5,272 nt of DNA from Ramlibacter sp. (GTDB lineage Bacteria; Pseudomonadota; Gammaproteobacteria; Burkholderiales; Burkholderiaceae). The position numbers and the translations under genes are program-made. The stretch covers positions 1 through 5,272 of the forward strand of contig JACMQP010000480.1 of the NCBI GenBank assembly GCA_014376915.1, read 5' to 3'. Numbering within the stretch: position 1 is the stretch's first letter; each line of letters begins with the position of its first letter. This document shows, in pieces, positions 287-3,630 of this stretch. The notes under the pieces are model-generated. The model did no database searches. It was not told where the DNA came from and saw only the letters and a program-made list of their open reading frames with translations.

Positions 287-302
287 TTTACCTAACTTTA
301 CC
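287..302 (-). promoter_or_regulatory. CpxR-box-like direct repeat, candidate operator
   Basis: TTTACC occurs at 287-292 and again at 297-302, exactly 10 bases apart, in an AT-rich pocket of otherwise GC-rich DNA. Read on the minus strand it is GGTAAAGTTAGGTAAA, that is GTAAA-N5-GTAAA, which fits the box known for E. coli CpxR (two GTAAA half-sites a few bases apart). OmpR-family regulators bind such tandem half-sites with about one helical turn between them. The response regulator encoded downstream resembles CpxR, so autoregulation is a reasonable inference. The site lies about 75-90 bases upstream of the likely transcription start at 377. A third TTTACC at 363-368 overlaps the proposed -10 element. 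Confidence 0.5.
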
Positions 303-376: not shown

Positions 377-1090
377 ATGCAGCAACTCTTGATGATCGAA
401 GACGACGCCCGCCTCGCGCAGATGGTGGGCGAGTACCTCGAACGTTCCGGCTACACCGTCACGCACGCGCTGGATGCCAGGTCCGGCATGGCCCTGCTGC
501 AGGACCCGCCCGGCGGCGTGCCGGTGGACCTGCTGATCCTGGACCTCATGCTGCCCGACATGGACGGACTGGAAGTCTGCCGCCGGGTGCGCGCCATGCC
601 CGGTGAAGTCGGCAAGGTGGCGGTGCTGATGCTGACCGCCAAGGGCGACCCGATGGACCGCATCGTCGGCCTCGAGCTGGGCGCGGACGACTACCTGCCC
701 AAGCCCTTCGAGCCGCGCGAGCTGCTGGCGCGCATCCGCGCCATCCTGCGCCGGCGCAGCGAGGGCTCGGCGCCCGCCGCCAAGCTGCTGCGCTTCGGTT
801 CGCTGGAGATCGACCGCGATGCCCGCACCGTCATGGTCGGCGACCAGGTCTGCGATCTCACCTCCTACCAGTTCGACCTGCTGATCGCGCTGGCCGAGCG
901 CGCCGGCCGGGTGCTGACGCGCGACCAGATCATGGAAGCGGTGCGCGGTCGCGAGCTGGAAGCATTCGACCGCTCGATCGACGTCCACATGGGCCGCATC
1001 CGCGCCGCGATCGAAGTCGATGCGAAGAGCCCCAAGCGGATCCTGACCGTGCGCGGCGTCGGCTACGTGTTTGCCAAGCAGCAGGACTGA
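377..1090 (+). CDS. OmpR-family response regulator, CpxR-like
   Basis: This 237-residue DNA-binding response regulator is normal length for the OmpR/PhoB family. The receiver domain (about 1-125) has the acidic pocket E8-D9-D10, phosphoacceptor D56 in LILDLMLPDMDG, switch T87 and K109 in the LPKPF motif. The winged-helix domain (about 138-235) ends in ILTVRGVGYVF. The stretches DRIVGLELGADDYLPKPF, RELLARIRAILRR and FDRSIDVHMGRIR closely resemble E. coli CpxR as I remember it, so a CpxR-like (or RstA-like) role in envelope-stress control is likely, but orthology is unproven. The start at 377 gives the usual MQQLLMIEDD opening. An in-frame ATG at 338 would add 13 unusual residues and run over the proposed -10 box. 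The partner kinase begins 20 bases downstream in the same operon. Confidence 0.93.
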   Translation: MQQLLMIEDDARLAQMVGEYLERSGYTVTHALDARSGMALLQDPPGGVPVDLLILDLMLPDMDGLEVCRRVRAMPGEVGKVAVLMLTAKGDPMDRIVGLELGADDYLPKPFEPRELLARIRAILRRRSEGSAPAAKLLRFGSLEIDRDARTVMVGDQVCDLTSYQFDLLIALAERAGRVLTRDQIMEAVRGRELEAFDRSIDVHMGRIRAAIEVDAKSPKRILTVRGVGYVFAKQQD

Positions 1091-1110: not shown

Positions 1111-2292
1111 ATGCGGTTTCCGATCTACCTTCGCATCTGGCTGGCCGTGGTGGTCGCCGTCGGCCTGCTCACGTTCGCGTTCGGCTGGCTCTGGCGCGCC
1201 AACGCCGAACAGTCGCCCGCGCGCGAGCTCTTCATCCGCAACGAGGCCGGCGACGTGCTCGGACAAACCAGGCAGCGGCCGGTGCGGGTGCCGGGCCAGG
1301 GTGTGGAGTTCCAGGTGGCGATGAACGACGGCAGCACGCTGGTGGTCCAGATCCCGCCGCGGGCGCGCCGGGTCGGCGAGGGCCCGCCGCCGCGGCCCTG
1401 GGCCTGGACCCGCGGTCCCGAAAGCCTGTTCTGGTTGTTCGGCATCGTGGCGCTGGCGGTGGCGATCGGCACTTATCCCATCATCCGGCGCCTGACCCAG
1501 CGGCTTGAAGACCTCCGGCGCAGCGTCGAGCGCTGGGGCGAAGGCGACCTGAGCGTGCGGGTAAAGGAAGGCGGCACCGACGAAGTGGCCTTCCTGGCGC
1601 GCCGCTTCAACCACGCCGCCGAGCGGGTGGAGACACTCGTCAAGACCCACAAGTCGCTGCTGGCCAATGCCTCGCACGAGCTACGCTCGCCACTGGCGCG
1701 GATCCGCATGGGACTGGAGCTGATGGACGGCGAGTCCACCATCGGCTCGCGCGCGGAAATCTCGCGCAACATCGCCGAGCTCGACCAGCTGATCGACGAG
1801 ATCCTGCTGGCCAGCCGCCTCGACGCCAGCGAAAGCGACATCGGGACGATCGAGCAGGTCGACCTGACGGGGCTGGCGGCCGAGGAATGCGCCCGGGCCT
1901 GCGCCGAGCTGGTCGAGGTGAACCAGGGCCGGGCGATCGTGGTGGACGGCGTGTCGCGGCTGCTGCGGCGGGCCATCCGCAACCTGCTTGAAAACGCCCG
2001 CCGCTACAGCGACGGCCCGGTCACCGTCGAGGTGACGCGCGAAGGGTCGCAGGCAGTGCTGCGGGTTGGTGACCACGGCCCGGGCGTCCCGCCGGCTGAG
2101 CGGGAGCGGATCTTCGAGCCGTTCTACCGCTTGCCTGGCGCCAGCGAGCGGGCCGGCGGCGTCGGCCTGGGGCTGGCGCTGGTGCGCTCGATCGCAACCC
2201 GGCACCACGGCAGCGTGCGCTGCGATGACCAGCCTGGAGGTGGGGCCGTTTTCGTTCTCAGCGTCCCTGTCACGAGGTGTAATTCACTGTAA
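1111..2292 (+). CDS. Membrane sensor histidine kinase (CpxA/RstB-like), partner of the upstream regulator
   Basis: This 393-residue kinase should autophosphorylate on histidine and pass phosphate to the response regulator encoded 20 bases upstream. The first transmembrane helix is about residues 7-29. A short periplasmic sensor (about 30-104) follows and ends in an Arg/Pro-rich stretch (82-97), then the second helix (about 105-127), a HAMP linker (about 128-180) and HisKA with H189 in NASHELRSPLARIRM. The ATPase domain shows the N box N291-LLEN-A, the G1 box DHGPGV (321-326), the F box FEPFYR (335-340) and the G2 box GGVGLGLAL (349-357), so all catalytic motifs look intact. The sensor is shorter than I recall for E. 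coli CpxA, so the signal may differ. A weak GAGA lies just upstream of the ATG. The last twenty or so codons are less GC-biased at third positions, where a candidate promoter overlaps. Confidence 0.93.
   Translation: MRFPIYLRIWLAVVVAVGLLTFAFGWLWRANAEQSPARELFIRNEAGDVLGQTRQRPVRVPGQGVEFQVAMNDGSTLVVQIPPRARRVGEGPPPRPWAWTRGPESLFWLFGIVALAVAIGTYPIIRRLTQRLEDLRRSVERWGEGDLSVRVKEGGTDEVAFLARRFNHAAERVETLVKTHKSLLANASHELRSPLARIRMGLELMDGESTIGSRAEISRNIAELDQLIDEILLASRLDASESDIGTIEQVDLTGLAAEECARACAELVEVNQGRAIVVDGVSRLLRRAIRNLLENARRYSDGPVTVEVTREGSQAVLRVGDHGPGVPPAERERIFEPFYRLPGASERAGGVGLGLALVRSIATRHHGSVRCDDQPGGGAVFVLSVPVTRCNSL
2255..2283 (+). promoter_or_regulatory. Candidate sigma-70 promoter inside the kinase 3' end
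   Basis: TTCTCA (2255-2260, four of six against TTGACA) and TGTAAT (2278-2283, five of six against TATAAT) are separated by 17 bases. The expected start is near 2290, on the kinase stop codon, and the first hairpin of the intergenic RNA begins a few bases later. The promoter is embedded in coding sequence whose codon choice is locally relaxed (for example AGG TGT AAT TCA), which would fit a constraint other than protein coding. This is a match by eye and needs start-site data. Confidence 0.42.
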
Positions 2293-2433
2293 GAGAGTCC
2301 GCCGGGACTCACCGCGAACGCGAAAGATCACCAAGATAAGGCCGTAGCGAAGCGGGCTCCACGCCCGCTCCAGGTCTCCCAACGACGTCCTTCCAAGGAC
2401 TTGATACAGCCACCGCGAGGTGGCTGTTTTTTT
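2290..2433 (+). ncRNA. Putative small RNA (or structured 3' UTR) with four hairpins
   Basis: This stretch has no convincing ORF but holds four successive stem-loops. They are GAGTCC/GGACTC at 2295-2310 (loop GCCG), AGCGGGC/GCCCGCT at 2351-2369 (loop TCCAC), GTCCT/AGGAC at 2387-2400 (loop TCCA), and the terminator stem at 2406-2427. An A-rich, probably single-stranded segment (about 2320-2342) and a C/T-rich one (CTCCAGGTCTCCCAACGAC, 2368-2386) separate them. TCTCCC in the latter could pair with Shine-Dalgarno-like GGGAGA, as proposed for C-rich loops in other bacterial sRNAs. With the promoter at 2255-2283 the transcript would be about 140 nt. It could instead be released from the two-component operon mRNA by processing. 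I do not recognise it as a named family. Confidence 0.5.
2406..2433 (+). terminator. Strong Rho-independent terminator
   Basis: ACAGCCACC (2406-2414) and GGTGGCTGT (2419-2427) form a perfect 9-bp stem closed by a GCGA (GNRA-type) tetraloop, followed by seven T residues (2427-2433). It ends transcription of the response regulator/kinase operon and of the proposed small RNA, and separates them from the next kinase gene. It also argues against any start codon for that gene upstream of 2434. Confidence 0.93.
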
Positions 2434-2490: not shown

Positions 2491-3630
2491 ATGCTTGCAA
2501 CCATGATGTCTCATTTCCTCTCCAACAACCGCGACGAGTTGATTGCGCGCTGCAAGACCAAGGTCGCGCAGCGGCCCCGGCGCGACGCCACGCCGATTCA
2601 ACTCGCCAGTGGCGTCCCGATGTTCCTTGAGCAGCTGACCCGCACGCTCGAGGCCGAGGAAGGCGAAGAAGCCGGGGAAAGCCTGCGGATTTCGGGGCCT
2701 TCGGGCGGCGATTCGATGGCCTTGTCCGAAATCGGCCGAGTCGCGGCCGCCCACGGCAAGGAACTGCTCAAGCTCGGCTTTTCAGTGGCACAGGTCGTGC
2801 ACGACTATGGCGACCTGTGCCAAGCCATCACTGACCTGGCCTTCGAACGCGACGCGCCGTTCGCCGTCGACGAATTCCGCACCCTCAACCGCTGCCTGGA
2901 CAACGCCATTGCCGACGCCGTGTCCGCGTTCAGTTCGCAACGCGACGCCACGCTTGCCCTGCAGCAGCGCACCGATGCCAACGAGCGGGTCGGCTTCCTG
3001 GCCCACGAACTGCGCAACGCCCTGAGCACTGCGACGCTTGCCGTCAGCGCGCTCGAACTGGGCAACATGACGTTGGGCGGCGCCACCGGCGCGGTCCTCA
3101 AGCGCAGCCTGGCCGCGCTCGAGCGCCTGATCACCCGGTCGATCGAGGAAGTGCGGGACAACGCAGCGGTCGAGCGACGGACGTTTTCGCTGGCCGGCTT
3201 CATCACGGACGCGCAGCACGCGGCCGAGCTCGACGCGACCGCGACCGGCTCTCCCTTCACGGTCGCGCCCGTCGATCCGGCCCTGGGCGTGTACGGCAAC
3301 CGCGAGTTGCTGCTGGCGGCCTTGGCCAACGTGTTGCAGAACGCATTCAAGTTCACCCGGCCGCGGACCGCAGTGACGCTGAATGCGCTGGCTTTCGGCG
3401 CCCACGTGATCATCGAGGTCTCGGACCATTGCGGGGGACTTGCGCCCGGCGTGGTGGAAGCGATGTTCGTGCCGTTCGTACAGCGCGGCAACGACAAGTC
3501 CGGCCTCGGGCTCGGGCTGTCGATTGCCCGGCAAAGCGTGGAAGCCGACGGCGGTACCCTGAGCGTGCGCAACCTCCCGGGCACTGGCTGCGTCTTCACG
3601 ATCTGCGTGCCGCGGCACGCGTTGCACTAG
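2491..3630 (+). CDS. Soluble orphan sensor histidine kinase
   Basis: This histidine kinase (379 residues from 2491) has no transmembrane segment, so it is probably cytoplasmic. The N-terminal half (about 8-150) is helical and opens with FLSNNRDELIARCKTKVA; it contains VVHDYGDLCQAITDLA and looks like an RsbRD-type N-terminal sensor module, a resemblance I cannot test here. HisKA carries H172 in FLAHELRNALSTA. The ATPase domain has N280-VLQN-AFKF, a variant G1 box SDHCGGL (311-317), F box MFVPF (325-329) and G2 box KSGLGLGLS (336-344). No response regulator is adjacent, so its partner is unknown; crosstalk with the upstream regulator is only a possibility. In-frame ATGs at 2491, 2503 and 2506 lack a clear ribosome binding site. 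Starts at 2503 or 2506 (MMSHFLSNN) are equally plausible. Confidence 0.87.
   Translation: MLATMMSHFLSNNRDELIARCKTKVAQRPRRDATPIQLASGVPMFLEQLTRTLEAEEGEEAGESLRISGPSGGDSMALSEIGRVAAAHGKELLKLGFSVAQVVHDYGDLCQAITDLAFERDAPFAVDEFRTLNRCLDNAIADAVSAFSSQRDATLALQQRTDANERVGFLAHELRNALSTATLAVSALELGNMTLGGATGAVLKRSLAALERLITRSIEEVRDNAAVERRTFSLAGFITDAQHAAELDATATGSPFTVAPVDPALGVYGNRELLLAALANVLQNAFKFTRPRTAVTLNALAFGAHVIIEVSDHCGGLAPGVVEAMFVPFVQRGNDKSGLGLGLSIARQSVEADGGTLSVRNLPGTGCVFTICVPRHALH

Follow-up and report, generated by a model that had tools for sequence, protein, structure and literature searches.

CpxQ of E. coli and Salmonella is an sRNA that is cut from the cpxP mRNA, and 3'UTR-derived sRNAs of the CpxQ type are freed from the mRNA by RNase E. 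Nearest in layout to the sRNA that we discuss are the Burkholderia double-hairpin RNAs of Rfam family RF02278, 'Betaproteobacteria toxic sRNA' (ncS03, ncS05, ncS27 and ncS62). RNAs of this type are about 60 nt long with a CU-rich 5' segment, one hairpin and a terminator, and some are processed to a short form (PMC5688073). S17 of Bordetella pertussis is related to RF02278 by its own paper, which gives the short form S17S as a 67 nt RNA processed by RNase E from a 190-nt precursor (PMC11722255).

The stretch of DNA that was analysed, the window, is 5,272 nt from Ramlibacter sp. It has on its forward strand genes for an OmpR-family response regulator (377..1090, with Pfam Response_reg and Trans_reg_C) and a sensor histidine kinase (1111..2292, with Pfam HAMP, HisKA and HATPase_c), and directly 3' of the intergenic stretch is the gene for a second HATPase-domain protein (2491..3630), which is below all of the NCBIfam kinase cut-offs displayed. 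Further genes in the window are for an NMO-type protein and of the heptosyltransferase type. A preliminary description had called the operon CpxRA-like, and the OmpR family assignment holds, but the two proteins fall below the NCBIfam equivalog cut-offs for CpxR and CpxA and are not placed in CpxRA on that basis: the regulator has 158 bits against 341 for CpxR and 228.5 against 331 for OmpR, and the kinase 153.6 against 486 for CpxA and 205.8 against 478 for RstB. The DNA had also been attributed to Xanthomonadaceae, but the nearest relatives of the kinase put it in Comamonadaceae, with Ramlibacter and Caenimonas on top among the matches listed from genome contigs (80 relatives kept); no kinase relative was found in viral contigs.

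Judged by comparison of related sequences, there is a conserved RNA gene between the two HATPase genes, with a core of about 60 nt in double-hairpin form at 2373..2433 (+), defined by covariance models R1 and R2, identity and fold. The core comprises an unpaired TCCCAACGAC at 2377..2386 (+), which is conserved and is the putative seed, hairpin 1 at 2387..2400 (+), GTCCT-TCCA-AGGAC, supported by covariation, and an intrinsic terminator with a GCGA loop and T run at 2406..2433 (+), with its stem at 2406-2427, supported by a terminator scan and covariation. The window has a covariance model score of 78.4 bits at 2375-2430. In blastn of the intergenic stretch against the loci of kinase relatives there is a single conserved piece at about 2371-2433, with 88-97% identity in L001-L008. 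The 5' boundary of the core is sharp at about 2373, and in the window the core starts 86 nt 3' of the kinase. The predicted fold is more stable than that of shuffled sequences for 2290-2434 (z -3.7), for 2373-2433 (z -4.1) and for the predicted transcript of about 90 nt from 2344 (z -4.35). Several elements of the preliminary description are thus borne out, namely the canonical terminator with its GCGA loop, the C-rich segment, which is an unpaired and conserved UCUCCC, and the lack of an ORF, there being no + strand ORF of at least 60 aa (the range of the listing) wholly inside 2255-2433. Across the genus there is no joint conservation of the three upstream hairpins that it proposed (2295-2310, 2314-2322 and 2350-2370), and 2293-2370 is without conservation of the core type in relatives; stem 2295-2310 is identical in the closest relative, L424, and by eye is partly formed in some others.

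In an alignment of the window with 34 other loci, 96.3% of cells in the stems are paired against 90.0% in shuffles, and 7 of the 14 pairs are changed on both sides, a number reached by none of 500 shuffles. When the stem partners were slid as a control only 31-59% were paired. Hairpin 1 includes exchanges of UA and CG at the inner pair and of CG and UA at another. With 89 members aligned, two-sided changes are seen at 11 of the 14 pairs, a figure biased by the fitting of this larger alignment to the model. In the smaller alignment CCAACGAC is nearly invariant and among the most constant parts, and stem 2387-2400 and the single-stranded segment match the terminator in strength of conservation. 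The outcome lies between conservation of the terminator alone, which the preliminary description had set against an sRNA, and conservation of all that it proposed: the promoter and most upstream stems drift, and stem 2387-2400 and the unpaired segment are kept, with covariation. An unpaired conserved segment is what is expected of the seed of an Hfq-dependent trans-acting sRNA, and TCCCAACGAC may have this role.

The claim of an sRNA gene absent from Rfam and adjoining an OmpR-type two-component operon is thus supported by conservation and covariation. The window is under every Rfam cut-off, as are the ten other members that were scanned. For RF02278 the window has 16.7 bits against a cut-off of 50, and the best of the ten others, L175, has 31 bits. 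The layout of an unpaired 5' CU segment, hairpin and terminator in about 65 nt is shared with RF02278, but it is common to unrelated sRNAs, and the conserved sequence in RF02278 is different (TTGTCTCCTCCA.. with a C-rich loop). A match to RF02278 (E<=0.001) is also present in 64 of 79 genomes positive by model R2, and when both sites were compared by eye in 30 genomes all differed, so the two are not orthologous. S17 is alike in layout, in having a short 3' form and a conserved 5' part, and in its link to a two-component system (Bvg), a likeness of description and not of letters, but its gene is flanked by a glycosyltransferase gene and coq7, and BvgA was not needed by its promoter in vitro (PMC11722255). 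With isrD (RF01388) the likeness is in the terminator letters only (21.7 bits against a cut-off of 37). CpxQ, compared in sequence through the Rfam scan alone, is alike as an sRNA with a link to a regulator of the OmpR family and envelope type, but there is no cpxP-like gene at this locus, and the parallel drawn in the preliminary description is possible only as that of an sRNA under a CpxR-like regulator. In the open-licence literature we found no sRNA study devoted to Comamonadaceae or Ramlibacter and no description of this RNA, the letters CCAACGACGTCC leading to two unrelated papers only.

With regard to distribution, the samples were 399 genomes of the family (that of G005), 300 of the order and 60 of the genus (that of G001). 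By model R2 the core is present in 147 of the 399 family genomes, with one match each except for two in G296, and in 4 of the 300 order genomes, all four of which are also in the family sample; CCCAACGACG was present in all 20 additional R2 matches inspected. Model R1 gives 105 matches in 104 of the 399 family genomes, of which L182, L186 and L169 are doubtful by eye. In the order sample R1 gives 8 of 300 at E<=1e-5, and four of these, at 35-38 bits, resemble plain terminators. In the genus sample it is positive for 38 of 60, and G728 is a 39th, scored negative only since its contig ends inside the core. L439 was counted as core-less, its genome being unscored by R1, and at 321 nt downstream it has one string that differs from the seed at no more than two positions.

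A kinase homologue is directly upstream on the same strand in 56 of the 105 R1 matches, the others being elsewhere or unresolved, and the fixed tie to the operon that had been proposed does not hold. Matches lacking the kinase often have neighbours in common (MmsA-like, UPF0149-like, LysR, Hsp70-like, PriA and DadA, as read from the letters and not by database search), and since so many cores have no kinase neighbour and share other neighbours, the sRNA gene is free-standing in other genera. G296 alone in the family sample has two strong copies (L136 and L137), of which only one follows the kinase. The element could in principle be a mere 3'UTR terminator of the operon with a stabilising hairpin and no separate RNA function, as might be suggested by the 56 matches directly behind the kinase and by the terminator being the strongest element, but the constancy of the unpaired CCAACGAC and the conserved free-standing copies with their own promoter block, seen away from the kinase, make this highly improbable.

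That promoter-like block, P2, is found across the family. It consists of a palindrome TCCCC-N6-GGGGAT (TCCCCcaaatGGGGATG), 20-21 nt, TAcAgT (TACAGT) and tgctgtcacag at the likely start, and its score exceeds the shuffle 99th percentile at 115 of 125 loci, the shuffles being mononucleotide and the matrix trained on the same loci. L182 and L186 had been dropped before this count as terminator-like matches, and L169 was kept despite its degenerate seed. The predicted start is 6-115 nt upstream of the core, with a median of 68. Ten loci are under the threshold: the window (-18.9) and L001 (-12.3), in which the loss is real; L121, L152 and L153, in which the start is so near the core that the script clipped the block (L121 alone was read); and L104, L129, L142, L159 and L168. 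In the genus set P2 is found by regular expression in 24 of 34 rows, a count that includes the duplicate loci L352/L002 and L357/L003; the failures are the window, L361, L086 (from the genome of L001) and seven rows in which a GGAT- or TAnAnT-like piece can still be read. The four loci most alike by kinase, namely the window, L424 (88% identity to the window), L361 (85%) and L001 (79-81%), have no readable P2, which is present in the next, L351 (78%).

The P2 palindrome TCCCCCAAATGGGGGATG with up to 2 mismatches is found in 12 of 20 genomes, with 10 copies in G135 and 8 in G355, against 4 control matches overall, and TCCCCCAAATGGGGGAT recurs 8-10 times in these two genomes (L330-L350). Near some of the sites are genes for a Usp protein, PAS/GAF and MASE4 sensors, a U32 peptidase and sigma-54 activators. 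The copies in G135 and G355 read as sites of a regulator, and our guess for the palindrome would be a NarL-like dimer site. A dyad, GTTG-CTGTCA-CAAC or ACTG-CTGTCA-CAGT (L009, L059, L128 and others), is also seen at the start predicted for P2, some 40-110 nt 5' of the core; its arms change in step, and it may form a hairpin at the 5' end or serve as a binding site.

Loci of the genus also commonly have promoter-like elements, P1, at the kinase stop. The preliminary description put a -35/-10 pair there, and the letters are indeed present (TTCTCA at 2255-2260 and TGTAAT at 2278-2283), but they do not satisfy the rule of the promoter scan, which returned 0 promoters, and relatives do not retain the -35 hexamer; the retention of TGTAA is explained by its overlap with the kinase stop and with a response-regulator box. 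This box is a CpxR-type direct repeat, GTAA-N6-GTAA, at 2279..2292 (+), over the kinase stop codon. The CpxR box motif we take to be GTAAA-N5-GTAAA, which is present in reverse upstream of the regulator gene as TTTAC-N5-TTTAC (287..301, +), a putative binding site of CpxRA type. The reversed box precedes the regulator gene in 46 of 78 loci and appears in none of 300 shuffle rounds. Of 36 loci whose kinase identity is at least 68%, 24 have the kinase-stop box (shuffle mean 0.12), as against only 3 of 73 others; both counts include the duplicates L352/L002 and L357/L003, which were removed for the genus counts that follow and for the genus stem comparison. At 2262-2292 the C-terminus of the kinase is in a different frame in the window and L361 (..SVPVTRCNSL and ..LPCHEV respectively), and the DNA around the repeat is nearly equal in the two despite this, as after a one-base difference.

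Downstream of the box is a promoter-like pair, TCACC-N18-CAAGAT, at 2309..2337 (+). The pattern TC[GA]CC-N17-19-[CG]A[AC][GT]AT is present in 19 of 35 core-bearing genus loci (shuffle mean 0.02), and box and pair together in 17 of 35, with spacings of 16-17 and 18 only in a search that allowed 10-24 and 15-20, giving for P1 the layout GTAA-N6-GTAA, 16-17 nt, TC[GA]CC, 18 nt and [CG]AA[GT]AT. The last of these is a poor match to the sigma-70 consensus. Of 22 genus genomes scored as lacking the sRNA 17 have the kinase, and one of these, L424 (G728), has the box and P1, followed by the first part of the core where the contig ends, and was moved to the positives; the other 16 kinase loci have neither box nor P1. 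The box is thus in 26 of 36 loci with the sRNA and in none of 16 without it (Fisher p 1e-6, with kinship ignored). It is absent from 10 of the 35 core-bearing loci; in L361 the box is present and the TCGCC/-10 pair not recognisable, and in L001 the pair is present and the box one base shorter. The spacing from the conserved P1 elements suggests a start near 2344 and not near 2290 as had been proposed, and, taking 2332-2337 as the -10-like element and the terminator as the end, the predicted primary transcript is of about 90 nt at 2344..2433 (+). The proposed link to the response regulator of the operon is plausible on this evidence.

We consider it probable that this is a member of an undescribed family of trans-acting sRNAs of Comamonadaceae, itself probably Hfq-dependent, which in the branch that includes the window is expressed under the neighbouring regulator or by operon read-through. 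The core would be the functional 3' part, in which the unpaired UCCCAACGAC would pair with mRNAs and protection of the RNA would fall to the small hairpin and terminator, and the terminator with its T run would fit dependence on Hfq. The ancestral state would be expression from its own regulated promoter, P2. In the Ramlibacter group P1, located upstream where the kinase ends, would be a second promoter, of response-regulator type, such that the sRNA of most of the genus would be under two inputs. As P2 has gone in the branch of the window, transcription there would start near 2344 under the regulator, or come by read-through, and end at 2433, and the RNA of about 90 nt may be cut back to the 60-nt core, in the manner of S17 (PMC11722255). 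Somewhat more tentatively, and short of an even chance in our estimation, there may have been a promoter hand-over, in which P1 was gained in one genus and the ancestral promoter then lost, the regulon of the RNA being moved whole from one signalling network to another.

It is rather unlikely, but to be taken seriously, that in this branch the sRNA comes from the operon mRNA, read-through ending at the terminator and RNase E freeing the 60-nt 3' end. The loss of P2, the position of the core 86 nt behind the kinase and its sharp boundary at about 2373 would all suit such an origin, as would the processing by RNase E of S17S (67 nt, from 190 nt), which has the same layout, as reported (PMC11722255); the P1-like elements that lie between at fixed spacing however fit a promoter. 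We think it very unlikely that P1 is a site for something else, such as a repressor of the end of the operon, or a remnant, with the RNA decaying after the loss of P2. P2 is missing in the window, L424, L361 and L001, and cores can decay, as in L429 and L430, but the core of L361 is identical to that of the window at 61 of 64 positions and that of L001 at 60 of 64, although the kinases differ by 15-20%. For the P1 stretch the figures are 46 of 68 and 42 of 68 respectively. L429 and L430 are genus loci scored as sRNA-less in which P2-like letters, CTGTCAC and the terminator are kept and the seed is gone, and are apparently decayed copies.

For the preferred reading, that of a trans-acting sRNA, we looked for targets. 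Exact GTCGTTGGGA is present at 137 places in 24 genomes, against 170 for the reversed control, and ACGTCGTTGG at at least 436 places against at least 335 for its control, part of the former being the sRNA itself and codon bias being uncontrolled. The GTCGTTGGGA sites inspected numbered 110 (30 loci and 80 of 92 other listed non-self places). The largest recurring set, of six loci, is one conserved gene region, read as antisense to the coding sequence, and was rejected, as was the second, of five, which is the sRNA itself. Two pairs, L268/L318 and L294/L307, are in sense near or inside coding starts. Pairing of the sRNA with the start regions of its own operon is not beyond that of shuffles (p 0.46-0.96). 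No conserved perfect target emerged from the seed searches or this pairing test, and our claim is thus limited to a trans-acting sRNA with targets unassigned.

Comamonadaceae are common in soil and water, and an sRNA that is outside Rfam, nearly single-copy and with an almost constant seed is an entry point to Hfq regulation in the family. The change of promoter between close relatives, if true, would allow a direct test of the passing of an sRNA regulon from one signal to another.
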